Position numbers and translations under genes: made by a program
The notes under the pieces: generated by a model
What the model saw: only the letters and a program-made list of their open reading frames with translations
Databases searched by the model: none
What the model was told of the DNA's origin: nothing
Shown: in pieces, positions 132 to 29,497 of the stretch
Position numbering within the stretch: the stretch's first letter is position 1
Layout of the letters: each line of letters opens with the position of its first letter
Source: a virus
Reading direction: 5' to 3' (one strand)
Virus record (IMG/VR): IMGVR_UViG_3300050029_000284
Location: 1-29,681 of that record
DNA length: 29,681 bases

Positions 132-917
132 TCACCCTGTGCAATCGCAATTCATTATCAGAATTTCCATCGCTTCCTTCTGTACCTCTCCGACATTATT
201 AAGCGACCTCTTGACCACTTTTAGATCCTTGACCTTGAATCCTTTATAAAGCCGCCTTATTACCGGATGATCCTCGTAACTCAGAATGAAGCGACCTTTG
301 AGAGACTTCAACATATCCCGTAGCTTTTCATGCTCTTCCATATCGAATTTGCCCGATCCCTTCTTATAATAAAACTCTGTATCCATATAAGGCGGGTCCA
401 GATAAAAGAGCGCGTTCGGATGATCCCAAATCTTAATACACCTCTCGAAGCTGTTATTCTCGATATAAACCCCTTTAAGCCGCTCCCTGATCACCGGCAG
501 AGACTCCAGGCAAGTCGGATATCTTGGACGGTCCTGTCTCCCATAGCCCCAACCACTCGTCACGTTGGCCCCAAAGGAGTTTTTGAGAAGGTAGTAGAAC
601 ATTATAGCCCTATCTATATCATCCTTGGGCTTGCAGGTCCTCCAGGCCTCCCTGAAGGCCGTATATTCCTCCCGGCTGGCCAGAAGGAAGTGTTGACGCC
701 TCTCAAACTGAAGGTCATGGTCCCGGACAACCCTGAAAAGGTTGACGAGATCGCCATTTATATCGTTATAGACTTCGGTTTTTATCTTTGGTTTATTGAA
801 CAGGACCCAGCCGCCGCCGCCGAAAACCTCTATATAGCTCTTGTGGGACGGCATTTTGGATATTATCGATGCTGCAAGACGAGATTTACCACCAACCCAA
901 GGCACAAATCCAGACAT
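132..917 (-). CDS. dam: DNA adenine-N6 methyltransferase, Dam/D12 class
   Basis: A 261-residue enzyme of the D12 class, which transfers methyl from S-adenosylmethionine to adenine N6. The AdoMet-binding N-terminus reads PWVGGKSRL (residues 6-14) and EVFGGGG (30-36), followed by EVYNDING (48-55), and the catalytic DPPY is at 174-177. Length is normal for the family. The ATG at 917 is chosen over an upstream TTG at 944 because AAAGGGGG lies just before it. It is the last phage gene before the right end, beyond the late terminator, so it probably has its own transcript. Mu keeps its anti-restriction mom gene in the same place; protection of phage DNA from host restriction is the likely job. Target sequence not deducible. 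Confidence 0.93.
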   Translation of the reverse strand: MSGFVPWVGGKSRLAASIISKMPSHKSYIEVFGGGGWVLFNKPKIKTEVYNDINGDLVNLFRVVRDHDLQFERRQHFLLASREEYTAFREAWRTCKPKDDIDRAIMFYYLLKNSFGANVTSGWGYGRQDRPRYPTCLESLPVIRERLKGVYIENNSFERCIKIWDHPNALFYLDPPYMDTEFYYKKGSGKFDMEEHEKLRDMLKSLKGRFILSYEDHPVIRRLYKGFKVKDLKVVKRSLNNVGEVQKEAMEILIMNCDCTG

Positions 918-949
918 TAGTTCCCCCTTTAAATTTGGGGGCAAACCGT

Positions 950-1107: not shown

Positions 1108-1593
1108 TCAGTTCGACAGCTTCAGACTGAAGTTGTTCGTCAGCACATCCGTATTCACAAGCGCACGTGGTGTACTCAGTTCGCTCCAAGCTATCAGGTT
1201 CGTGCCGTCCGTGATGAAAATCGTCGTCACGGTCTGCGTCCACGTACCTGTCGCCGTCCAGACAAGGTTCTTGCTGGTGAGCTTCCAGCCGTTTCCGTCT
1301 GATGCGCTCGTGGTCCAGCCGGTACCCGACTGCTCGACGGTTATACGCCCGTAGCCGTTTCCGGAGGGTTCGCCTGCCGACGCTGCCGAAAGAGCAGAGT
1401 CCTGGGTCAGCGTGGCGCTTGTAAGCCCCACCTGGAACGTCGTGGTAGCCCCGCCGCCTTTCAGGAACCTCTCCAGCGCAATCTGGTAGCCGGCATGCGT
1501 GAAGCCCGCCGCAAACGCGGACGAGGCCATCAGCATTACCAGCATGGTTGCCGCGAGGATCCTTCCTAAATAAAACCTTTTAAAGCTTTTCAT
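1108..1593 (-). CDS. Exported tail-fibre-like protein
   Basis: 161 residues. The start is the ATG at 1593 after AAAGGAGG; a longer in-frame reading exists but has no ribosome site. Residues 1-29 form a Sec signal peptide: basic MKSFKRFY, a hydrophobic core, then SAFA|AG. The mature part carries VGLTSATLTQDS and EPSGNGYGRI, a pattern found in short tail-appendage proteins of many tailed phages, usually without a signal peptide. It is the last late gene before the terminator and follows the tail-tip gene. Role as a fibre or receptor-related protein is inferred from these motifs and place; the signal peptide is the odd part. Moderately sure of the family resemblance only. Confidence 0.6.
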   Translation of the reverse strand: MKSFKRFYLGRILAATMLVMLMASSAFAAGFTHAGYQIALERFLKGGGATTTFQVGLTSATLTQDSALSAASAGEPSGNGYGRITVEQSGTGWTTSASDGNGWKLTSKNLVWTATGTWTQTVTTIFITDGTNLIAWSELSTPRALVNTDVLTNNFSLKLSN

Positions 1594-1634
1594 GGTTTTT
1601 ACCTCCTTTCCTTTAAGATTTACTGCATTTAAGG

Positions 1635-2594
1635 TCAAGATGTCGTTGCCGCAGTGACATAGTTGAGCCATGTAAACAAACTGGAATAAGACGGGTCCCT
1701 TGCGCCTCCAACGACGACTGAACCGGCAGCCGCAACAACCCCGTCCGTTGCCGATATTATAAGCGAGCCGTTCTTGTAGACCTTTATCGCCGTACCCTTT
1801 ACCTCCAGGCGATATATCCCTGCTGTGCTGGCGTCGGATAGAGTGCCGAGTAACGTGGTTCCTCTATAAAGGCTGACGCCTGCATTGTAATTTACAACTA
1901 ATGAATAACAATTAGTGCCATCGACATACCTTGCATATAGCCTTGCCCATCCGCCAGTGCCTCCTATTGCAGCTTCAACGTAATAATCTGCGCTGGAAGG
2001 AACTGCCGCATTCTTGTAGAACGTATCGCCGCTTTGGTCGATTTCGCAATGTCCTGTACTCGTATTGTTGCCGAAGTTATTCCCAGTCCCGACCTTCGAC
2101 CATGCCCCGCCGACCTCAGGCGAGTGGTTGGCAAGGCTTCCTGCCGCGTCCGAATTGAATGTGTCGTTGAGGAATACCCGGGTCAGGGTATCGGTTTCCG
2201 ATACGGATCCCACGCCGGTCACCTTTTGGCTTTCCGTGTGGTGCAGGCCGCTTGCGTTCGTCGGTGTCCCGGTGCCTGTGGCTTTCTGAGCCTCGTGGAT
2301 GCCCAGCAGGTCCGTATCTGAAACGGTGCCAGTCCCGGAGACCGTCTCTTCCTCCGAGTACAATCTATGTTCATCAGTGGAAACCGAACCTATGCCTGCG
2401 GCCTGCTGGGCCTCGGAATGGGCTACGCCATCGATGCTTTCCACACATCCCGCTCCGTCCGTCTCGGTCGCCTCGGTATGAGCCAAGCCGTCCGCATCAG
2501 CCGCGATGCCCTGTCCCTGGGCCGAGGACGCCTCATGGATACCCCCGCCGCCAAGATGGTCCGCGCTCGCACCGGTACCGGTACCGGTTGCGGT
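1635..2594 (-). pseudogene. C-terminal part of the tail-tip protein, beyond an in-frame TAG
   Basis: This 319-codon stretch continues the reading frame of the gene ending at 2595. It contains no ATG at all and no ribosome-binding site, so it cannot be an independent gene. It carries seven more units of the same repeat, then a roughly 180-residue beta-rich domain (DTFNSDAAGSLANHSP, then alternating strands and FTWLNYVTAA near the end). That pattern resembles concanavalin-like sugar-binding domains, giving a plausible receptor-binding tip. It is expressed only if the TAG is read through or suppressed, or if the TAG is a recent mutation or sequence error. Labelled pseudogene for lack of a better term. 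Confidence 0.7.
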
Positions 2595-2711
2595 CTAGGC
2601 CTCTGTCATGTTCATGGTATCCGACGATTCGACCGATCCAGACCCCGTCACAGTCTCCGCATCATGGGCGGAAAGGTGGTCCGTGCTCTCCACGGTACCG
2701 GTACCTACAGC
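2178..2711 (-). repeat. About nine tandem ~20-residue repeats in the tail-tip protein
   Basis: The protein repeats the pattern [AV]xGxGxVxxxDxLxxxEAQx about nine times, for example AVGTGTVESTDHLSAHDAET and ATGTGTPTNASGLHHTESQK. The units straddle the TAG at 2595-2597. The DNA is diverged rather than identical, so the array is old. It probably forms an extended linker carrying the C-terminal binding domain. Confidence 0.8.
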
Positions 2712-5270
2712 CGGGTTATCCGCTTGCTGGCCCGGCCAGCTCAGGCCGTTTACTTTATAAAAACCCTCGCCTATTTCTTCAACCGATTCCGTCCAAAACT
2801 TTATGCCGTCATGCAGCACGGCATTGATAGCAAAGGTATCGCCCGGCTCCAGCTTTGCCCCGTTTCGCCAGTCGATAACAAAATCAATCGGTATGAGCTG
2901 GCCTTTTTCCTGAAGTTTCCTAAAAGCCAGCCAGTTAGGCACATGGGCGGCGTTACGTACGGCCCACAGCTCATATTTCTTATAGAAAACGCCAAAGGTT
3001 GTCTGAGATGATGAGTCCGAGTCCGTTGCGTCCCCAGCCCAGGTACCCGCTTTGGCACCAGTCGCAGCGTTGGAGGAATAAACATGATCGAATACGGCCT
3101 CAAAATCGTTATAGATGTCCGTCTCTGGTGTCCGGCTGAAAGAGAAACCGCCCTGCGTATCGGCCTCGTTTATGGTTATGCCTGCCGGAGGAGTGCTCGG
3201 GATATATGCCAGCTCCGCCGTGCCGGAATAGCTCCAGTAGAACACGCTGCGGGACAGGAAGGCGAGTTCGTCAATCAGGTCGGTAAACGTCCTCCCTGAC
3301 ATATTCTTCTGTGTTTTAAGGAGTTCTCGCCATGAAAACGCGAATTTGTAACCGGCTGCAACCTGGGCGGCGCGGGTTGTACTGAAAGAATTTCCAATAT
3401 TTTCTAAAGCCCAACCTTGCTTGGTTACCAGCAGGTGTTTAATTATGTCTACCGGGACCTCTATAGTGCTATTCGGTGAACCCGTGTATGTGCCATAGAC
3501 ATCGTCCTTATAGCCGGTGCCTTCGATGGCCACTTCCTTACCTATAACCATCTCCGCCGTGTTGTTACCCGTGAGTGCTACGCCGGTTGCAGGCGATGAA
3601 CCGCCGCCATCGGGCAGGTAGATGACCTCGCACCAGTGCTCACGGCAGGCTGCACCAGCCCCGGAAATCCAGAGGAAACGCAGAGTCATACCTTGGAATT
3701 CATCCCAGGACGGGCGTCCTGCCTTAGTAAGTGCGGACCTATATGTTACTGAAGTCGCCCCGCCTCCCTGCGTGTATTTGCCGTTATATGCTCCCCCTTG
3801 AATCGTCGAGCGACCAATGCCGCCATAGGTCGGGTCGCCAATGGTATTGCATAAATTCGCTCCGATTATAGTGCCTTTATCGGAAACCGCAAAACTCCTT
3901 GTAGTATCGCAATATGACGAGCTCGACATAGTTGTCAAGGCCCATGAGGTCTGACTGCTATCGCACAGAGAAGTGTCTATACCGGATAAACTCATGATCG
4001 AAGAGAACACACGAGTATCTTGAAATATGGTTTCCGTCACGGTCTTGACTATTGTTCCGGTATACGAACCGGCCGCAAGGGCGATGGCGGTACTGATACT
4101 CAGGACATCGACGTAATTTGAACCGTTCGCGGTGATGAGGAAATAGTTCGTGCCATCGTTGAAGGCAAAGTTCTTCCACTGGTTTGCCGTCCAGCCCGGA
4201 TTGACCGTAGCCGTCCACCTCGATGCAGATGTCTTGGACCCGGCCCCGCTCCAGGACATACTGTTATGGCTGTGGCTGCCCTGGTTGACCCCCAAATTCA
4301 CCTGCTTATCGAGGGTCGCCTTAACCGTAAAACTCACTGCGGCTGTATTGGGATAAAGAGGATGCTGGCTCCCGGTAAGGCCGGTATATGCAGTGAACCC
4401 TGATGTCTGCCTTACGCCGTCCACTAATACGCCGATTATGCTCCCCTGCGGCCCGTCGTTACAGATATAGTCATAGTTGCTCTGTACGACGGCTATCTGC
4501 GCGCCCTGGTTGTGGTTCACGGTCACACCGGTTACGCCTGTTAGGACGTGCCCGGCCTTTCCCGTCCAGTGTATGGTGTCGTTATCCACTATAGCCGCGC
4601 CGCTTACCGGAAAGGCCAATTCCCCCTGGGCCTCGTTGATTGTAGCGGTTGTCTGCCCAGGTGTAAGAATAACGGCCAGTGTCGATACCGCGCCTGGGTT
4701 TGCCGGGACGCATAGTGCGCCAGCCACCGAGCCGTAGTTCCAGGGGAGTGGGCTTGCAATTACCCTCGGGTCCGCAAGCGGATATTTGCTGTAGTTGACT
4801 ATATTCTGAACGCGCTTTTTATTAAGGTAGTAGGACAGGTGCGAAACGCCGCAGATAAACGTGTCCCTGTCCTCTGAGGCGATGCCGTCCAGATTGCCGA
4901 CAAACGCATAAAGTGGCTCCGACTGGCCTCCAAAATCGTCCAGACTGATTTTCCTGATAAGGATCGATGCAAAAGTAAAGGGGTATAAATCGTTTATCTG
5001 GCTCAGAAAGGCAAAGGTCTTATAACGTCGATTAAGGAACTCGATCCGTATATCTGGATTTGAAGTGGTCGATGTGATACGGGATGACGTGCGGGAAAGC
5101 CCTGACCAGCTCTTGACGTAGCGCAGATACTGCTGGTTTCCAACCTTGATGTTATGGGTAGAGAAATAATGGGTGCCGCCACCGTTCTTCAGTGTGATAT
5201 CGAACAGTACAATCTCGGTTTTTCTCTTTTTAGAGTTGTGTTTCTGCTGCGTCGCCGTAAGCGTCTTCAT
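2595..5270 (-). CDS. Tail-tip / tail-hub protein (891 residues to the TAG)
   Basis: Large tail protein following the distal-tail gene, with which it overlaps by ATGA. The N-terminal ~190 residues (FDITLKNGGGTHYFSTHNIK..., then DIRIEFLNRRY) and the conserved C-terminal part (FVIDWRNGAKLEPGDTF, then KFWTESVEEIGEG, about residues 805-840) look like hub proteins of siphophage tails; between them is a beta-rich insertion of roughly 300 residues starting near GALCVPANP, possibly surface exposed. The last 38 residues begin a repeat array that continues in frame past the stop. The stop is TAG and aligns with a conserved glutamine (CAG) in other repeat units, so the ancestral protein was probably about 1211 residues. 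Function is assigned by position and size; host recognition is likely. Confidence 0.75.
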   Translation of the reverse strand: MKTLTATQQKHNSKKRKTEIVLFDITLKNGGGTHYFSTHNIKVGNQQYLRYVKSWSGLSRTSSRITSTTSNPDIRIEFLNRRYKTFAFLSQINDLYPFTFASILIRKISLDDFGGQSEPLYAFVGNLDGIASEDRDTFICGVSHLSYYLNKKRVQNIVNYSKYPLADPRVIASPLPWNYGSVAGALCVPANPGAVSTLAVILTPGQTTATINEAQGELAFPVSGAAIVDNDTIHWTGKAGHVLTGVTGVTVNHNQGAQIAVVQSNYDYICNDGPQGSIIGVLVDGVRQTSGFTAYTGLTGSQHPLYPNTAAVSFTVKATLDKQVNLGVNQGSHSHNSMSWSGAGSKTSASRWTATVNPGWTANQWKNFAFNDGTNYFLITANGSNYVDVLSISTAIALAAGSYTGTIVKTVTETIFQDTRVFSSIMSLSGIDTSLCDSSQTSWALTTMSSSSYCDTTRSFAVSDKGTIIGANLCNTIGDPTYGGIGRSTIQGGAYNGKYTQGGGATSVTYRSALTKAGRPSWDEFQGMTLRFLWISGAGAACREHWCEVIYLPDGGGSSPATGVALTGNNTAEMVIGKEVAIEGTGYKDDVYGTYTGSPNSTIEVPVDIIKHLLVTKQGWALENIGNSFSTTRAAQVAAGYKFAFSWRELLKTQKNMSGRTFTDLIDELAFLSRSVFYWSYSGTAELAYIPSTPPAGITINEADTQGGFSFSRTPETDIYNDFEAVFDHVYSSNAATGAKAGTWAGDATDSDSSSQTTFGVFYKKYELWAVRNAAHVPNWLAFRKLQEKGQLIPIDFVIDWRNGAKLEPGDTFAINAVLHDGIKFWTESVEEIGEGFYKVNGLSWPGQQADNPAVGTGTVESTDHLSAHDAETVTGSGSVESSDTMNMTEA

Positions 5271-10837: not shown

Positions 10838-11346
10838 CCCCTTTTCTCCAGGTCTGCCTTGATGGTGATGCCCAGTTCCTTGGACGCAAACTCCATGTGA
10901 GGCATCGTCGCCTTAATGCCGTCCCGGAACATATGTTTGCCGGGAAAGCCCTTCTTGCCGATTGACCGCGCCACTACGAAGGCCACCCCTGCCGAGTATT
11001 CCTCTGGGACGTTCAGGAACTTTTCGACCCAGGTCCTGAGCGCTGCCGGGGGCGGCATCTTCTGGCCGGGCCTGCGGCCCTCTTCGATCGGAAGAGCATA
11101 AGCCGAAGGTGCGGCCACTATTCCGATCGGGTTTGCCGGGTTCCCGCGCATTTCCGAGAAGATCCTTCCGCGCAACCCGCCTTCCATGCCCATGACGCCC
11201 TGGGGAGTCCGTTCCTTTATCTCGCGCTCGGCATACAGGATCGAGCCCTGTATAAACTGGTAGAGCCGCTTGCGCATTATCTCGCCCACGATGCCTGGAG
11301 TCTTGAATATGGCGTTGTAGGTCGAGTACTCGATCACGAAGTCCAT
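10834..11346 (-). CDS. HK97 gp10-like head-tail joining / minor tail protein
   Basis: 170 residues, TAATG overlap with the upstream gene. A helical start (GEIMRKRLYQFIQGSILYAEREIKERTPQG) leads into LRGRIFSEM and PSAYALPIEEGRRPGQKMPPP, the pattern of HK97 gp10-type proteins in which a Tyr follows the residue pair and a variable loop is near the end (RSIGKKGFPGKHMFRDGI). These proteins sit at the neck between head and tail. Good family-level match by eye and by position. Confidence 0.72.
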   Translation of the reverse strand: MDFVIEYSTYNAIFKTPGIVGEIMRKRLYQFIQGSILYAEREIKERTPQGVMGMEGGLRGRIFSEMRGNPANPIGIVAAPSAYALPIEEGRRPGQKMPPPAALRTWVEKFLNVPEEYSAGVAFVVARSIGKKGFPGKHMFRDGIKATMPHMEFASKELGITIKADLEKRG

Positions 11347-12038
11347 TAATACCTTCTCCTCCGGTGGACGAGGAAGTCGGAGCCGTCCGGGAAGTTATTG
11401 TGCATATGGGTGGTACCGGAGGCCGCAGGCTGGGACGTATCCTTGTCCACGCCGACATGCGCCTCGTATAGTTTCCGTAGCTGCTTGGCGCGAGAGGCAT
11501 ATTCAGCGCTCCTGGACTTGTGGTCCACGACGTCCGCCTGGATGGTAGAGTCGTTCGTCTTTGCATAGTCGCTTGATAGCGTCTCGCATGCCTCAGCGGC
11601 TACGAGGTTTGCCAGGGCGTCCAGGTCGGAGGCCCGGACCGTTGTCTCGTCGATATGCCTGGTTGTGAACGTAACCCTCATGCTGTCGCCCAATGGCAGG
11701 CTCATCCTCATTAGCCTTAGGACCTGCCCGGTCGGGGACTTGTACACAGTGAAATCGTCTTGTGACGTGAGAAACGCCGCGTTCTGAAGCCCGACCGGGT
11801 ACTCGATGTCCTTAAGCTCCGAAAAGTCCGCTTCCCAGCCGGATGGAGGGGCGTAGTCATGGCCGCCGTCGCCGTTAATGTCGGCAACAACCTCTCGGGG
11901 GCGGTCCTTACTGTAACGGGCGAGTGCCAGGGCAGCGGCCTGTTCCCAGTCCGGGGCTGCCAGCCTCGACGAATCCTTTGTGCGCAGTTGCGCCAGGGCC
12001 GTCAGGTTAGATCCGCCTGTCTCAATATTTATAGGCAT
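11346..12038 (-). CDS. Head-tail connector / neck protein
   Basis: 230 residues from the ATG at 12038, preceded by AGGAGG that shares bases with the TAG stop of the upstream gene; a longer in-frame reading has no ribosome site. A helical region (EQAAALALARYSKDRPREVVADI) and DALANLVAAEACETL suit adaptor proteins that sit below the portal. It is the first structural gene after the exported-protein cassette and precedes the gp10-like protein. No recognisable catalytic motif. Confidence 0.6.
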   Translation of the reverse strand: MPINIETGGSNLTALAQLRTKDSSRLAAPDWEQAAALALARYSKDRPREVVADINGDGGHDYAPPSGWEADFSELKDIEYPVGLQNAAFLTSQDDFTVYKSPTGQVLRLMRMSLPLGDSMRVTFTTRHIDETTVRASDLDALANLVAAEACETLSSDYAKTNDSTIQADVVDHKSRSAEYASRAKQLRKLYEAHVGVDKDTSQPAASGTTHMHNNFPDGSDFLVHRRRRY

Positions 12039-12046
12039 AGTGCCTC

Positions 12047-13228
12047 CTAAGGCGTTATATTGGCCGTGCTGCTCCGGCCAGCGTATGTATATTCGATGGT
12101 GTAGGCAACCCCATGCGACAGCCACAGCCGGTTGGCCCACCTGCCGTTGTCGAGGCTCGACGTGCTCGCCTTGACGGTGTAGCTCCTGGCATCATAATCG
12201 GCCTTCAGGTATGCCCGGATACGGACGCCTCCGGTCGGAACCCCGTTCACGTTTGAAAGGAGCGGAGTCGGGTTGAGCTGCGTAGCACCGAATGTCTCAT
12301 CGACGGCCGTATCGCCGCTGCCTACTGTGCCGCCCCAGGGGCCGATGCCGAACCTGGTTGCAAAATAATCGGCCCCTGTGCTCCAGTTCACAAAACCCGA
12401 CCCGCCGCCACCAGAAAGAGAGTTTAATTTCTTGCCCGCCTGGCCTGTCCCCGTATAATTACCAAGCGGTCTGCGCCACACCGCGTCGGCCATAGCGTCG
12501 TTGTCTATGGTCGCAATCATGTCGACTTTATTGTCAGACGAGATTGCAATCTGGTTGGTAGTAGATGTTCCCGTCTTTTTAAGAAGCACGTTCGACGCTT
12601 CGATCTGTGCAAGCGTCAGCGAGCTTGGTGCACTCGTAAGGGTCCTGCCACCTGTCCCGGTATAGTTCCACATGCTCCTGGCGTCCACGTTCACCGTGGC
12701 CGTCGAATCCACCTGGATGGTCCGGGTATAAGACGTTTTCCCGTAAATGCTGCTCATATTATAGAGGGCAGTATAAACACCAGCAGATGACGGCGTGCTC
12801 CAGTTCCCAAACGCTATGCTGCTCGTATAGTTGGGGAAGCCCTTAAGCGTTATGGTTTTGACTACCGCGCCGCTCTCGTTGATTATTTTAACGGTGCCGT
12901 ACTGCCTGGTGGTTGAATAAACCTTGCCATGCCAGATAGAGCTTGTGCCCAGGGCGCTTGCGCCAGCAGCAACCATCGCAAGCAGGAATATAGTCAACGC
13001 GCAGGTTGCGGCAACCTGACGGGCCTTGGCCTTATATCTGCAGGCCTGCTCACGCCTGCGGACCTTGCAAAGAAAACACCCGGCGAGTTCGTGCATGGAC
13101 TCCGAGCATTTGGCCTCGGTCATGTCGGCATAAGCAGTGCAGCCGGGCCATGCCGCCCTTTGCCTGCCGGGGGCAAGCAGTTTTATAAATTTACCCTTGA
13201 AGTCGAACCCGCTCATGGCGCTCCTCAT
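12047..13228 (-). CDS. Membrane-anchored/exported repeat protein with Cys-rich N-terminal tail
   Basis: 393 residues, starting at an ATGA overlap with the cytochrome-like gene. A ~70-residue N-terminal part is predicted cytoplasmic and Cys-rich (Cys 30, 41, 51, 54, 63 and His 46, including CFLC), followed by basic residues, a hydrophobic segment (72-92) and an exported remainder. The outside part has strands and two copies of a motif with NYTGTG (MWNYTGTGGRTLTS and RRPLGNYTGTGQAGKKLNS), as seen in phage fibre or adhesin shafts, and a C-terminal beta domain. Last gene of the exported cassette; stops with TAG inside the next gene's Shine-Dalgarno. Function unknown. An alternative is a shorter protein starting later, but no good start was found. 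Confidence 0.65.
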   Translation of the reverse strand: MRSAMSGFDFKGKFIKLLAPGRQRAAWPGCTAYADMTEAKCSESMHELAGCFLCKVRRREQACRYKAKARQVAATCALTIFLLAMVAAGASALGTSSIWHGKVYSTTRQYGTVKIINESGAVVKTITLKGFPNYTSSIAFGNWSTPSSAGVYTALYNMSSIYGKTSYTRTIQVDSTATVNVDARSMWNYTGTGGRTLTSAPSSLTLAQIEASNVLLKKTGTSTTNQIAISSDNKVDMIATIDNDAMADAVWRRPLGNYTGTGQAGKKLNSLSGGGGSGFVNWSTGADYFATRFGIGPWGGTVGSGDTAVDETFGATQLNPTPLLSNVNGVPTGGVRIRAYLKADYDARSYTVKASTSSLDNGRWANRLWLSHGVAYTIEYTYAGRSSTANITP

Positions 13229-13890
13229 CTGAGATATTTGGCCTTGACCGAACTATGCGGCCAGTGGCAGTCCATGCAGTTATTGACCGTGCTCACAAAC
13301 CCCACTTTTGCGGATACCTTCGATGTTCCCCAGTTCTTTACCGGGGACAGTTTTGGCACAGTCTTATTTGTGTTCCAGGTTATGGAATATGAAAACAGCG
13401 GCGCAACCGACGTTTTAAGCAAGTACCTGACGGCGTCGCGCCTGTTGTAGTACACCCCCCGGGTATGAGTAGCGGAATTCTGTGCCACTGCCTTGGACTT
13501 GGAACGCGCATACGCCGTGGTCGAATAAGAAAACCGAGCTGTCGACGCGTTATGGCAGGCCAGGCAGACTCCCGGCCTCGGGTTCTTGCCCCCGGTGAAC
13601 CCCTTGAAAAACGATGTATAGTTCTTATGCCGGTCAACGGTTGTTGTGCTGTTATAGACATACGGCACCGTGTGGTGGACCGTCCAACTGGTGTATGTGT
13701 GAACGATAACGACCGTCGTCGGCTGCACAAAATGGCAGACCTGACAATTCAAATAGGGCCCCATCGTTGTATAGTTGCCGTGCGCACCCGTAACCGATAC
13801 GCCGTTCTGGACATAGCCCTGCGAGGCTACGGCCCCGAAACAGGCAAGCAGTGCGACGTATACGGTTACGGCAAGCAGGGCCTTTTTCAC
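13225..13890 (-). CDS. Exported tri-haem c-type cytochrome-like protein
   Basis: 221 residues with a GTG start at 13890 overlapping the upstream TGA. A signal peptide (MKKALLAVTVYVALL..., cleavage near AVA|SQ, residue 22) is followed by three CxxCH haem c motifs: CQVCH at 49-53, CLACH at 109-113 and CMDCH at 205-209. Several further His (37, 64, 72, 73, 88, 142, 212) could supply the second haem ligand. In known biology such proteins are exported unfolded and haem is attached in the periplasm by the Ccm or Ccs system. The gene sits between exported neighbours inside the virion operon, so it should be transcribed late. Electron-transfer role, if any, is unknown; it could be host-derived. Confidence 0.85.
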   Translation of the reverse strand: MKKALLAVTVYVALLACFGAVASQGYVQNGVSVTGAHGNYTTMGPYLNCQVCHFVQPTTVVIVHTYTSWTVHHTVPYVYNSTTTVDRHKNYTSFFKGFTGGKNPRPGVCLACHNASTARFSYSTTAYARSKSKAVAQNSATHTRGVYYNRRDAVRYLLKTSVAPLFSYSITWNTNKTVPKLSPVKNWGTSKVSAKVGFVSTVNNCMDCHWPHSSVKAKYLR

Positions 13891-14444
13891 AGGCTGTGGC
13901 CTTCAAGCGGCGCTGGGCATGTGAGGCTGTAACAGCCGAGCGGGTCCGGGTAGGCTGAGACGTTCGAGCAGGCGGTAAAGCCCCCGCCCGTTGCCTTACC
14001 GTACCCCTCAAAATAGAGCCATACGTGGTCGCAGGTCTCATATCCTAACTGCACCAGCCTGTTCATCAGGTTAATGGTTATCTTTATACCGTCACCGAGC
14101 GGCAATACGCCCTCCGACGCTTCAAGCTGCGACAGGGTGTTATAGACGCTATGTCTTATAACCACCCCGCTTTCCTGCACAATCAGGTGCAGAGGGGCGG
14201 GGAAAGTCACGCTATTCCCGGAGATTATTGAGACTTCGGACAGCTTCCAGAACTGGCCGCAGGCGGGAACCACGTTAAGGTAATCTTCCGACGTGAGGTC
14301 CGCACAGGAATTCCCCATAGTCATGGGCGGATCCGGCGTTATGGGATCGCCGATACTCATAGTCCCGACCTTGCCCGCCGCGCAAGCGGTAAGGGCATTT
14401 AAAACGAGTAGTGAAAAAACTAATGCAACGAAAATTCTTTTCAT
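13887..14444 (-). CDS. Cys-rich exported protein or lipoprotein of unknown function
   Basis: 185 residues, ATG at 14444 after AGGAGGG. The N-terminus MKRIFVALVFSLLVLNALTAC is a signal peptide; LTAC matches a lipobox, so it may be lipid-anchored after cleavage before Cys21, though normal cleavage near ACAAG is also possible. Eight or so cysteines overall suggest disulfides in the periplasm (e.g. CADLTSEDYLNVVPAC and the C-terminal C-x-S-x-T-C). The middle has beta strands (VTFPAPLHLIVQESGVVIRH, KITINLMNRLV). It overlaps the cytochrome-like gene and its TAG-bearing upstream neighbour, so it is part of the same unit. No family recognised. Confidence 0.65.
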   Translation of the reverse strand: MKRIFVALVFSLLVLNALTACAAGKVGTMSIGDPITPDPPMTMGNSCADLTSEDYLNVVPACGQFWKLSEVSIISGNSVTFPAPLHLIVQESGVVIRHSVYNTLSQLEASEGVLPLGDGIKITINLMNRLVQLGYETCDHVWLYFEGYGKATGGGFTACSNVSAYPDPLGCYSLTCPAPLEGHSL

Positions 14445-14454
14445 TATTTCCCTC

Positions 14455-15054
14455 CTATTGATAAGTGATGCCGATGTAAAACCGCGACGGTGTCGCACCC
14501 GTGTTCTTTATGACGAACGGTATAGTGTTGCTTTTATCCAGGTTGATAAGCGGAAATCCGCACAATGTGTCCTGCAAATAGTCCGTCCCGTATGGGGCGG
14601 CTGTCAGGGTAGCAAAGTTCACCGAGGCCGCGAAGGTGTCCATGGAGTAGCCGGAACCCTCATAGGTCCCACGGTTATAGAACCACAGCCTGCAAGACGT
14701 CGTAGCCGCCGAGGCGACGACAGAGATGTAGTCAATCTTTATCTGGCACGGAAAGGGGTGAAGGCTGGTGGAATTGTCCATGATATAATTTGCCGCAGTC
14801 ACCTTCCGGGACGTACCCGCCGCTATCAGGCCGGTGAACTGGTAAAAGATGGTCTTATAGTCGCTTTTAACCGGCAACCGGACGCTCCCAATGATAGCGG
14901 CCTTCATGCTTGGGCCGTGGGCCTGGTCGACCGTGCCTTCAATCTTGCTTGGAGGCGAGATGTTAAACGTATCCCCGCCGTCCTGCCCGGTGCAGATGCC
15001 TACTGTGAGGCCGAGTACTAAAAGCACTACAATCGCTATTTTAATTATGTTCAT
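14455..15054 (-). CDS. Exported beta-rich protein of unknown function
   Basis: 199 residues. Two ATGs lie at 15057 and 15054; the second has the better spacing from GGAGG. N-terminus MNIIKIAIVVLLVLGLTVG is a signal peptide ending around CTGQDGG. The mature part is strand-rich (KIDYISVVASAATTSCRLWFY, TIPFVIKNTGATPSRFYIGITY) with the compact ending usual in phage surface or decoration domains. A leader with a conserved hairpin precedes it. It ends in TAG within the next gene's ribosome site. Possible capsid decoration or envelope protein; no family recognised. Confidence 0.62.
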   Translation of the reverse strand: MNIIKIAIVVLLVLGLTVGICTGQDGGDTFNISPPSKIEGTVDQAHGPSMKAAIIGSVRLPVKSDYKTIFYQFTGLIAAGTSRKVTAANYIMDNSTSLHPFPCQIKIDYISVVASAATTSCRLWFYNRGTYEGSGYSMDTFAASVNFATLTAAPYGTDYLQDTLCGFPLINLDKSNTIPFVIKNTGATPSRFYIGITYQ

Positions 15055-15065
15055 CATGCCTCCGT

Positions 15066-15118
15066 GTTCTTCGTTTACCCATGCCCCGGATAACTCCGGG
15101 GTCAGGGAAAGCAGAGAA
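15066..15118 (-). ncRNA. Structured leader RNA motif, copy A
   Basis: On the minus strand this reads TTCTCTGCTTTCCCTGA, a hairpin CCCCGGA-gtta-TCCGGGG, then CATGGGTAAACGAAGAAC. Predicted pairs: TTCT (15118-15115) with AGAA (15070-15067), TTTCCC (15110-15105) with GGG-T-AAA (15080-15074), and the 7-bp hairpin (15101-15084). It ends two bases before the Shine-Dalgarno of the gene at 15054. A second copy lies at 23319-23370 with different stem bases but the same layout. Confidence 0.5.
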
Positions 15119-15123
15119 TTTGT

Positions 15124-15603
15124 TTAACGCCGCTTTATCGCGATGTCCAGCGTCGGGTTTTTCACCGTATGCCCGGCTCCGGGCCCTATCAGGTCAACCC
15201 TTATATCTGTCTCGTCTTTCACGGTTTTGCCGACCTTGTCGCTCACAAGCTGGTTACTGGAACTCAGGTTACTGAAAACGGAGGTGCCGTTACTGTATAC
15301 CAACCGGTGCTGCAACCTCGCCGCCTTCGCGTCCGTGTACTGCACGGCAGAGTGGCATGCCAGCACATACATAGGCCAGTGCGCCCTGAGCCTGGCTACG
15401 CCGACCTTTGTGGAGCTGCCGGTGAATGTCCCCATGATAGGGAGGACAATTACCTGATAAGTGGGGGAGGACGCGCTCGGGTTGTCGGTAGTGTCGGCTC
15501 CCGCCGCGAATGCCGGGTCGCCGTTGGTGACCATGAGCATGGCTACAAAAAGCGCCATGAACACGATCGAGAGCATATAGTCTTTGAAGAAAAGCCTTTT
15601 CAC
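15124..15603 (-). CDS. Exported protein following the capsid gene
   Basis: 159 residues, GTG at 15603 after GGAG. Signal peptide: MKRLFFKDYMLSIVFMALFVAML... with cleavage at AFA|AG near residue 34. The mature part is beta-rich (YQVIVLPIMGTFTGSSTKVGV, then HRLVYSNGTSVF, and DIRVDLIGPGAGHTVKNPT). One Cys-His pair (ACHSA) is present but there is no full haem motif. It is the first gene of the exported cassette and follows the major capsid gene after a strong hairpin. In many phages the gene after the capsid encodes a decoration protein; an export signal is not expected for that, so the role is open. Confidence 0.6.
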   Translation of the reverse strand: MKRLFFKDYMLSIVFMALFVAMLMVTNGDPAFAAGADTTDNPSASSPTYQVIVLPIMGTFTGSSTKVGVARLRAHWPMYVLACHSAVQYTDAKAARLQHRLVYSNGTSVFSNLSSSNQLVSDKVGKTVKDETDIRVDLIGPGAGHTVKNPTLDIAIKRR

Positions 15604-15619: not shown

Positions 15620-15637
15620 GGGGGCCTTCCGGCCCCC
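15620..15637 (-). other. GNRA-type hairpin downstream of the capsid gene
   Basis: A perfect 7-bp stem GGGGGCC/GGCCCCC with loop GGAA on the minus strand lies between the capsid stop and the next start. No T-run follows in the direction of transcription, so it is not an ordinary terminator. It may stabilise the capsid mRNA 3' end or reduce expression of the cassette that follows. A structured RNA called the Mu-like gpT downstream element has been described at this kind of position; membership cannot be judged here. Confidence 0.5.
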
Positions 15638-15662: not shown

Positions 15663-17984
15663 CTATGCCTTAACGCACTTGTATGCGTTCCTGTATTCCA
15701 CCACCACGTCCTGGTACTCGTGGCGGCCCTTGTACTGGATCTTATCGGCCACGAACATCTGACCGACCGTGGGGACGTCCGCTACGAACATCTGCGGCTC
15801 TTCCCCGTTCAGGTACGCCGACTCGATGATCTCGCGCTCGGACGGGTCGCCTATCAGCATCCAGTCGTTCGTGTCGGTCATAATCGGCTGGGTCAGGATG
15901 TCCTTGTTGTCTGCCCCGAACCTCTGGAAGAGCCTGTTCGGCGTGAAGGAGCTGTCCAGGTACTTGGCCTGGTTGAGCGCGATCGCGGCGCCCGCCAGCT
16001 CGTGCGGGACCGCCAGTGTAAGCTTGGACCCTATGAAGTCCGTTCCGAGCCTCTCACCGGAACCCGGCTCTGTCATGTTCGCGAGGGCAAGTATCGCAGC
16101 CCATATCGCGGCCTCGTCCTGTGCAAGCGTCCCGCCAAGGCTCGTGGAACCGAGGTTGCCGTGGTTGGCGTGGAACACCCCAAGCCCGTCCGGCTGGTAC
16201 GTCGAGTTGTTTATCAGGAGGTTCCAAGCGTTTTTCGCCCTGGTGCGTATGAATGCGCGTCCCATCCTCTGGACCAGCTTCTGTACCGAGCCCAAGTCGT
16301 CGTTCAGTATGGTCGGCCTGGTCACCGTCAGGATAACGCCCTTGTTGGCGATGTTATAGCTGGACACGTCCTCGCCGATGCTGGTGCTGTTTATCTCGGT
16401 GTAATCGCTGACCTGCGGATCGACAGCCGGGATATCGCTGAAATAGCCGATGTTGATAGACTGCATGGTCTTGTAGTCCACGGCCTTGCGGGTGAAGGAT
16501 ATGATCCTCTCCAGGCCGTATGTAGACCTGCGGTACTCCGCTATCAGTCTGCGGTAGAGCGTGTTGCCGAGCAGCACCGGGAATGAGCTTGTGCTTATGC
16601 CGCCTTCGTTCGCGGCGCACATCCTCACGTATTCCCTGCTGAAGTTCCTCGGGTCGCCTGTGATGCCGGTATCGCCGGTGATCCTGGTGTATGCGGCGCG
16701 CAGTCCCTCGAATTCCGGGACGTCCTTGAATTTCTCGTCGTCTACGTCGAGACCGATCATCTTGTCGAATGCGGCCTGGAGGCGTTCCGGGCTGCTGGTG
16801 ACTTCGACCCTGCCGCCGAAGGCAACCGGGCTGCCTGACTCGGTTATCTTGCCCAGGTACTCGCGCTCAGCGACAAACGCGGCCTTAAGGTCCTCCGTCT
16901 TAAACTCCTTGCCCTCGAAAGCGGCCCTGAGTTTTCCCTTTGTCGCTTCCGGAAGTCCGGACTCGGCAAGCTCCGCGCGCAGCTCCGAGGCGCATGCCTG
17001 TAGCCTTACAGCCGTAAGGCCGGTGGCCAGGGTGTCGAGGTCGGCCTGGCTTGCCCCCTTCATCGTGTAGCCTGCTGCCGGAGCGGCTGCCAGAAGGTTC
17101 AACACCTCGTCCTCCGTAACCGTCTCCTTGTTTTCAAGCTTCGCCTTTATCTTGCCGTACTCGTCGGGCCGCGCCTTTTCGAGGGCGGCTAAAAGCCTGT
17201 GTAACATTTGATGCTCCTTTCCGCCGCTCTCCTGTGCGGCTACCATGCGTAAAAATTCCCCGCCCGCAATGGGCGAGTGCACCACGTCCACTTCAGCCGA
17301 TACTACTTTTTCAAGGTACCGGACCTTCTTGCCGTCAATTACCTTTTTTGTGACGTACCCGGTGATGTCGTTTGAGAATCCCAACAGGTCCTTCTTGCCC
17401 TTATTCCAGGCATCCACTACCGTATCCCTGAGCCACTTCGCAGCAGGCGTGATATGGAACGTGCCATAAAGGCCGTCCGCCCCCGCCTTCACGTTGTCTA
17501 TCCAGCCGACGATCTCCTTCACCGATTTCCCGTACTTTGGGCTTTTGGCTGGATCAACATGCTGGCTTTCTCCCAGGGCGAATACCCGCGCGCCTTCATA
17601 AATGCCAGTTGCGGCCTTCAGGGCCTCCGTCGAGTAAAAATCCTTACCATCCTTGGTCAGGCCGTACTTCACTATCCTGATGTCCCAGGTAGAACCTCTC
17701 GACTCCGGGGTCTCACCGGCGTCCGCCGCGCCGACCAGCTCCATTATTTCCGCTGCCATCATCGCCTGCTCGCCCGGTTCGCCTGCCTCCTCACCCATGA
17801 GCGTTTTCAGCAGGTCCATCATCTGCTGCATGAGGCCCATGTCCGCCATCGAGTTTCTGGAACCTGCGGCAAGAAGCTCTCTCGTCTCGGCAATAAGCGG
17901 GTCCTTGTCCGCCTGGGGCGCGTCTGAGGGAAGCGCCGAAGCCGCCGCCTTCAATGCCTCCAGTTGTTCCTTTAGTTTGTCCAA
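15663..17984 (-). CDS. Fused prohead protease, scaffold and major capsid protein
   Basis: 773 residues, TTG at 17984 after AGGAGG. A helical leader (1-95) precedes a prohead-protease-like domain (about 98-250) with a candidate His142 (GESQH) and Ser204 (LGFSND). A charged helical scaffold region (255-400) follows, then the HK97-fold capsid domain of Mu gpT type from about residue 463 (GISTSSFPVLLGNTLYRRL) to the end. Mu uses separate I, Z and T genes; here they are one reading frame. A well-placed internal start at residue 260 would make a 514-residue scaffold-capsid product lacking the protease. The capsid domain would form the shell, with scaffold removed by proteolysis. Protease catalytic residues are inferred from spacing. 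Confidence 0.85.
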   Translation of the reverse strand: MDKLKEQLEALKAAASALPSDAPQADKDPLIAETRELLAAGSRNSMADMGLMQQMMDLLKTLMGEEAGEPGEQAMMAAEIMELVGAADAGETPESRGSTWDIRIVKYGLTKDGKDFYSTEALKAATGIYEGARVFALGESQHVDPAKSPKYGKSVKEIVGWIDNVKAGADGLYGTFHITPAAKWLRDTVVDAWNKGKKDLLGFSNDITGYVTKKVIDGKKVRYLEKVVSAEVDVVHSPIAGGEFLRMVAAQESGGKEHQMLHRLLAALEKARPDEYGKIKAKLENKETVTEDEVLNLLAAAPAAGYTMKGASQADLDTLATGLTAVRLQACASELRAELAESGLPEATKGKLRAAFEGKEFKTEDLKAAFVAEREYLGKITESGSPVAFGGRVEVTSSPERLQAAFDKMIGLDVDDEKFKDVPEFEGLRAAYTRITGDTGITGDPRNFSREYVRMCAANEGGISTSSFPVLLGNTLYRRLIAEYRRSTYGLERIISFTRKAVDYKTMQSINIGYFSDIPAVDPQVSDYTEINSTSIGEDVSSYNIANKGVILTVTRPTILNDDLGSVQKLVQRMGRAFIRTRAKNAWNLLINNSTYQPDGLGVFHANHGNLGSTSLGGTLAQDEAAIWAAILALANMTEPGSGERLGTDFIGSKLTLAVPHELAGAAIALNQAKYLDSSFTPNRLFQRFGADNKDILTQPIMTDTNDWMLIGDPSEREIIESAYLNGEEPQMFVADVPTVGQMFVADKIQYKGRHEYQDVVVEYRNAYKCVKA
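17205..17220 (-). promoter_or_regulatory. Internal ribosome-binding site and ATG in the capsid fusion gene
   Basis: AAAGGAG at 17220-17214 is followed, after six bases, by an in-frame ATG at 17207-17205 (residue 260, MLHRLLAALEK). It falls exactly between the protease and scaffold domains. This is a better ribosome site than most gene starts here and would allow excess protease-free capsid protein, as with lambda C/Nu3. Confidence 0.7.
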
Positions 17985-29134: not shown

Positions 29135-29497
29135 TTACGCCGCCTCCTTGGGGCCGCAGCCCATCGGGCAGGGTGTTACGGGGCCACCGTCGAGGCAGTT
29201 AAGGCGCTCTTTGCAAGCGCCCTGGAGCGCCGGATCGCACTCGAAGTTACCGGACACAAGGCGGCGTCCCTGCGGCGACAGGCGGCTCTTCAGCATGACG
29301 CGACCGGCTGCCTGCATCAGGTCTACCAGTTCTCCGTCGCGCTTTTTCTTGTGGGCATACGTATTCGCCAGAGGAACCGTCTGAGATATTCCGCAGGCGC
29401 ATGGGCCGGGGCCTTTTCGGATCAGTTCGCAGTCCGGCTCCGGGCATATATAGGCTTCTTTCAGCTTTAACGAGACTGTCGGGATAATTTCTTCCAT
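29135..29497 (-). CDS. Cys-rich early protein, unknown
   Basis: 120 residues, ATG at 29497 after AGGAGA. Ten or so Cys arranged in two groups: CPEPDC...CAC near residues 18-34 and CDPALQGAC...NC...CPMGC at the end, suggesting two zinc-binding modules. The middle is a basic helix (AHKKKRDGELVDLMQAAGRVMLKS). Directly downstream of MuB. No family recognised. Confidence 0.62.
   Translation of the reverse strand: MEEIIPTVSLKLKEAYICPEPDCELIRKGPGPCACGISQTVPLANTYAHKKKRDGELVDLMQAAGRVMLKSRLSPQGRRLVSGNFECDPALQGACKERLNCLDGGPVTPCPMGCGPKEAA

Follow-up and report, generated by a model that had tools for sequence, protein, structure and literature searches.

The window (the whole stretch of DNA that was analysed, i.e. 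the 29,681 nucleotides of IMG/VR virus record IMGVR_UViG_3300050029_000284) contains a phage gene whose product is very probably, to judge by its motifs, profile match and conservation, a real triheme c-type cytochrome. The gene belongs to what is probably a transferable cassette of four genes, expressed late and acting in the host envelope. The explanation that we retain as a whole, a triheme cytochrome carried by a cassette and forming an electron path in the envelope, is given a probability of about 0.42; electron flow as the use of the cassette, taken separately, is a tentative proposal that falls short of even odds. An earlier note on the same DNA had correctly seen a credible exported three-haem cytochrome in a late operon; what it had missed is a four-gene module, common to an unrelated phage and absent at the same site in eight relatives.

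The cytochrome-like gene and its predicted haem sites

The gene and the segments of its product that matter here are the following, G001 being a second phage contig described below.

13225-13890, minus strand: triheme c-type cytochrome-like exported protein (221 aa; PF09699 above cut-off; all Cys and 9 of 10 His kept in G001)
13822-13890, minus strand: signal peptide, aa 1-23 (MKKALLAVTVYVALLACFGAVAS), from hydropathy; residue-identical in G001
13765-13782, minus strand: HGNYTT segment before haem site 1; the same motif stands ahead of a CxxCH in other genomes (22 multihaem ORFs)
13732-13746, minus strand: haem site 1, CQVCH, aa 49-53; conserved in G001
13552-13566, minus strand: haem site 2, CLACH, aa 109-113; conserved in G001
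13264-13278, minus strand: haem site 3, CMDCH, aa 205-209, then H212 (CxxCHxxH); conserved in G001

The ORF starts with a GTG codon, and its product has ten histidines. The three CxxCH motifs, the signal peptide and the several spare histidines announced in the earlier note are all present. Three CxxCH motifs were never obtained by chance in 200,000 shuffles of the residues of the protein, and no other ORF of at least 60 aa in the window has more than one. Six histidines outside the motifs (37, 64, 72, 88, 142 and 212) are conserved in G001 and are candidate distal ligands; their number would be enough for bis-His ligation of three haems. Inside the signal peptide lies a possible lipobox (LLAC, aa 14-17), a looser match than the LTAC of the neighbouring protein P203.

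A search against cytochrome profiles, as suggested in the earlier note, gave a match to PF09699 (Paired_CXXCH_1, the doubled CXXCH domain) at 24.7 bits for a curated cut-off of 20.6; the G001 homologue, at 30.1 bits, was also above it. With TIGR01905 (NCBIfam), the G001 homologue was above the cut-off of 25.2 (26.0 bits) and the window protein below it (20.5 bits). We place the protein among the multihaem c-type cytochromes because it combines at least two CxxCH motifs, a predicted export signal, candidate distal histidines and a profile match. With the motifs and spare histidines kept in the homologue as well, the earlier description of a credible exported multihaem cytochrome appears sound. 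The protein is sparse in haem sites (3 in about 198 mature residues), in contrast to the dense electron-wire cytochromes. The AlphaFold model, made without haem and from a two-row alignment, had a pLDDT of 27 and no usable fold; that of P200, another cassette protein, had a pLDDT of 40. Sequence searches of the PDB gave no relevant match; for the cytochrome, no solved structure corresponded.

Relation to cellular cytochromes

A DNA pattern coding for HGNYT followed by CxxCH, with CAC as the only histidine codon, was scanned over 84,980 species genomes. The resulting list, partial because of the single codon, has 27 stretches, and 22 of these 27 lie in an ORF with 2 to 73 CxxCH motifs. The multihaem ORFs are from Bacillota (including a Thermincola ferriacetica MAG), Actinomycetota, Chloroflexota, Bacteroidota and one archaeon. 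In sequenced genomes HGNYT...CxxCH seems to mark almost only multihaem cytochromes. Beyond the motif, similarity is weak: the best phmmer E-value, within the small set of pattern-matched ORFs, was 0.0016. No full-length host homologue was found in the close scan of the 84,980 species genomes, nor in about 1,100 genomes from the phyla of four motif-bearing genomes, which were searched more deeply but without positive control. For lack of such a homologue the electron partner cannot be named, and, since the deep searches had no positive control, the strict AMG label is withheld.

The carrier phage and the insert between capsid and neck genes

The 29.7-kb contig carries Gam, GemA, HU, a Mu-F-like protein (Phage_Mu_F-like, below the Pfam cut-off) and a gpT-related protease-capsid fusion, in agreement with the transposable carrier proposed in the earlier note. 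By its gene content, the window is seemingly a Mu-like phage with the transposase end missing from the record: no transposase is present in the 29.7 kb, the record stops upstream of Gam, and a profile search for the rve transposase was empty. The gene order is portal, F, capsid, P159, P200, P203, cytochrome, P393, neck, and the part of interest is as follows.

15663-17984, minus strand: protease-capsid fusion (gpT-related), left border of the insert, from profile match and comparison with relatives
15620-15637, no strand assigned: 7-bp G+C hairpin between the capsid gene and the insert, from a sequence scan
15124-15603, minus strand: P159, exported (signal peptide), first gene of the insert; no sequence match in G001
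14455-15057, minus strand: P200, exported (signal peptide); 69-70% identical in G001
13887-14444, minus strand: P203, exported, Cys-rich, lipobox LTAC; its C-terminal motif DPxGC....CP..LEGH is common to a 66-aa exported peptide of G001
12047-13228, minus strand: P393, one transmembrane helix near aa 72-92; first 177 aa 75% identical in G001
11346-12041, minus strand: neck gene, right border of the insert; adjoins the capsid gene in eight relatives

The cytochrome gene overlaps both of its neighbours, as the earlier note had reported, by GTGA (13887-13890) with the upstream exported gene and by ATGA (13225-13228) with the downstream one. Its position between proteins with export signals, inside the late operon and away from the edge of the element, also stands, the site being now defined as the capsid-neck interval. 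A hydropathy scan of the 44 genes of the window gave strong signal peptides for four consecutive genes (13225-15603) and for a fibre-like gene (1108-1671), the three other matches being weak. P393 is predicted to have a cytoplasmic N-terminus with conserved cysteines (30, 41, 51 and 54), the transmembrane helix and an extracytoplasmic C-terminal part. Profile searches gave no recognised redox domain in the partner proteins of the cytochrome.

Eight relatives, Microcystis phage Mae-JY22 and seven IMG/VR contigs, were linked to the window via the portal. Their capsid and neck homologues overlap or are at most 150 bp apart, against 3.6 kb in the window, which argues that the block is cargo inserted where the capsid and neck genes meet; the portal-matched loci contain no ORF carrying more than one CxxCH. 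Presence in one phage and absence at the same site in relatives, here eight of them, is one of the marks of a moron. The other mark, a promoter and terminator of its own, was not found: the same-strand promoter match, inside P393, is weak, the hairpin upstream has no T-run, and the genes overlap. A scan restricted to sigma-70-type consensus sequences gave no promoter-like site at the start of the insert on the coding strand. The hairpin itself is perfect, with a T-rich tail on the opposite strand only and none on the coding strand.

Three features elsewhere in the window are recorded here. The fibre-like protein (1108-1671, minus strand) scored 26.8 bits with PF23140 (Gp80; cut-off 27) and has a signal peptide, which is odd for a virion fibre. 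Between the ORFs 2595-5270 and 1635-2486, an in-frame TAG (2595-2597, minus strand) ends an 891-aa tail protein and breaks an array of repeats HxEAxxxxGxGxV...; the frame then runs on without a stop for 319 more codons, which encode further copies of these repeats. The TAG may be read through, may come from an assembly error or may be a recent mutation. At the tail end of the late region, 132-944 (minus strand) codes for a D12-class adenine DNA methyltransferase, with a GC content of 0.47 against 0.55 for the window.

A second carrier of the cassette

The only cytochrome homologue found in IMG/VR is that of G001 (IMGVR_UViG_3300033233_000095, 37,688 b), with 79% protein identity by alignment. 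Further IMG/VR scans with the cytochrome, P200, P393 and the HGNYT-CxxCH pattern led to G001 alone, the four other pattern matches having no multihaem ORF at the matched site; no homologue was found in GenBank phages or PLSDB plasmids. The earlier note had stated that homologues devoid of CxxCH would refute a cytochrome; this single one keeps all three motifs, together with 7 of 7 cysteines and 9 of 10 histidines. Third codon positions of the two genes are 53% identical, against 82-83% for positions 1 and 2, and dN/dS is about 0.16 (NG86) to 0.22 (YN00), with low values for P200 and the N-terminus of P393 as well. Judged by these substitution patterns, the cytochrome gene is under purifying selection.

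G001 has a capsid, adaptor and portal of SU10 type and a Terminase_3, none of which matched the window proteins. DNA similarity between the two is limited to P200 and to the cytochrome plus the P393 N-terminus; comparison of the proteins adds a tail protein (29%) and two small proteins to what the phages have in common. Between P200 and the cytochrome, G001 codes for a 66-aa exported peptide whose motif DPPGCWIKPCPLTLEGH matches the C-terminus of P203 (local score 60; best of 300 shuffles, 43). The start of the cytochrome gene overlaps the Cys-rich gene by GTGA in the window and TTGA in G001, and its stop overlaps the next start by ATGA in both. From this common order and these overlaps we define the cassette as P200, the Cys-rich peptide, the cytochrome and the transmembrane protein; in both phages it sits between the capsid and neck genes, upstream of the latter.

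In G001 (L008), positions 2002-2466, directly after the capsid gene, code for a 154-aa exported protein with no sequence relation to P159. In the cytochrome (13831-13890) and in P393 (13169-13228, both minus strand), the first 20 codons are nearly unchanged at synonymous sites relative to G001 (0.89 and 0.87), whereas most of the rest of both genes is far more diverged at such sites. Either a recombination tract or an RNA-level constraint at the gene junctions is proposed. Outside the cassette, a small Cys-rich protein (CPE..C.LIR.GPGPCACG) is encoded at 29135-29497 (minus) in the window and at 30430-30741 (minus) in G001, with 46% identity; its occurrence in two otherwise unrelated phages hints at a common host group.

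A 127-bp end repeat suggests that G001 is an assembled circle, although the end class that the collection assigns to it may differ; its genome looks complete. Profile searches, in which the controls were positive, gave no match to a tyrosine integrase, rve transposase or serine recombinase. A role restricted to lysogenic conversion was marked down on this ground: it is unlikely to be what the two phages share, and a role in the lytic phase is favoured. Should G001 be virulent, the function common to both phages has to operate during lytic growth.

A proposed role in the host envelope

The cassette would be transcribed late, along with the virion proteins, as part of one polycistronic message, as gene order, overlaps and strand suggest. 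Its exported members would cross the membrane by the Sec pathway. Haem c is attached outside the cytoplasm, so that loading of the three haems would use the cytochrome-c maturation system of the host. P393, through its single transmembrane helix, would anchor the assembly at the membrane, and the whole may serve as an extra electron path in the host envelope, sustaining the respiration of the infected cell through a long late phase. We favour an electron path because the haem sites and spare histidines are all kept. Redox cargo has precedents in the multihaem cytochrome clusters of Borgs (PMC9605863) and in phage soxD (PMC8190135). Several points count against an electron path: expression just before lysis leaves little time for a respiratory benefit, the partner proteins show no recognised redox domain, haem sites are sparse, the searches gave no host cytochrome similar over its whole length, and only two members of the cytochrome family are known. 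The more far-reaching proposal, of a phage-specific device of four genes that moves horizontally, is exchanged whole among unrelated tailed phages that infect one host group and forms a haem-bearing complex in the envelope during lytic infection, i.e. a viral electron-transfer or redox apparatus and not a borrowed host enzyme, is possible, with the odds about two to one against it.

Alternative explanations

Close behind the electron path ranks receptor masking or exclusion, which we consider unlikely, if not by much: the exported proteins would cover the surface of the host or block it, perhaps at a cytochrome displayed there that serves as receptor, which would save sibling phages and the progeny released onto debris from being lost, and the haems would serve for fold and mimicry, not for electron flow. 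Every member of the cassette is either exported or anchored in the membrane, P203 with a lipobox and the cytochrome with the looser one, exclusion lipoproteins inside a structural cluster have been tested in the mEpimmI coliphages (PMC11893012), and carriage by the apparently lytic G001 fits with protection of the progeny. Nevertheless, PADLOC and PHROGs searches revealed no relation to known exclusion proteins, and the full conservation of three haem sites and six spare histidines is more than a mask needs.

Decoration genes are often placed right after the capsid gene, where the insert also lies; exported beta-rich proteins and the cytochrome could thus bind the particle during or after lysis and give it a haem or redox surface, the more so as the fibre-like protein of the same phage also begins with a signal peptide. 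This is improbable, since virions of tailed phages are assembled in the cytoplasm whereas haem c is attached outside, and the same capsid-neck core occurs in eight relatives that have no cassette. Still less probable is a secreted protein in which the CxxCH motifs form disulfides or metal sites: the pLDDT of 27, the low haem density and the lack of a match to a solved structure would fit, but not the three exact motifs in their HGNYT context, the profile score above cut-off and a homologue that keeps them together with the spare histidines. That the gene is a recently captured host gene and a neutral passenger, as a motif common to cellular cytochromes might suggest, was rejected on the dN/dS of about 0.2 and is hardly credible for a cassette kept at the same place in two unrelated phages.

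Comparison with known systems

The phage cargo known to touch respiration consists mostly of copies of host enzymes. Here a probable cytochrome, intact and under selection, is found in the head-neck operons of two phages unrelated to each other, one of them apparently virulent; from the sequences, a haem-bearing device for the outer layers of the host appears to circulate among phages. If true, phages of cytochrome-rich bacteria make their own haem protein outside the cytoplasm, and the cassette would let one test directly whether phages manage or exploit the electron flow or surface cytochromes of such hosts. Searches of the open-licence literature turned up no tailed phage reported to carry an exported multihaem cytochrome, which is weak evidence of absence.

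The cellular doubled-CXXCH and multihaem cytochromes with (GP)HGNYT-CxxCH (PF09699/TIGR01905), e.g. that of the Thermincola ferriacetica MAG, have the same first site (HGNYT...CxxCH), the same last site (CxxCHxxH) and an exported architecture; they differ in having mostly six haems or more (range 2-73, the lowest values being those of contig-truncated ORFs), against three, widely spaced, in the phage protein. The mEpimmI exclusion lipoproteins are likewise exported cargo inside a structural gene cluster, a likeness drawn without sequence comparison; for them exclusion was tested and no haem sites are reported (PMC11893012). Phage soxC and soxD provide another case of a phage gene for a c-type cytochrome subunit; the two reported viral SoxD lack either one or both of the cytochrome motifs and are homologues of host SoxD (PMC8190135), whereas the protein described here keeps its three motifs intact and has no known host homologue. 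Borgs, too, are extrachromosomal elements with clusters of multihaem cytochromes (PMC9605863); they are giant elements of archaea that carry many cytochromes besides other cargo for host metabolism, whereas the element described here is a small tailed phage with one cytochrome, set within its structural operon.
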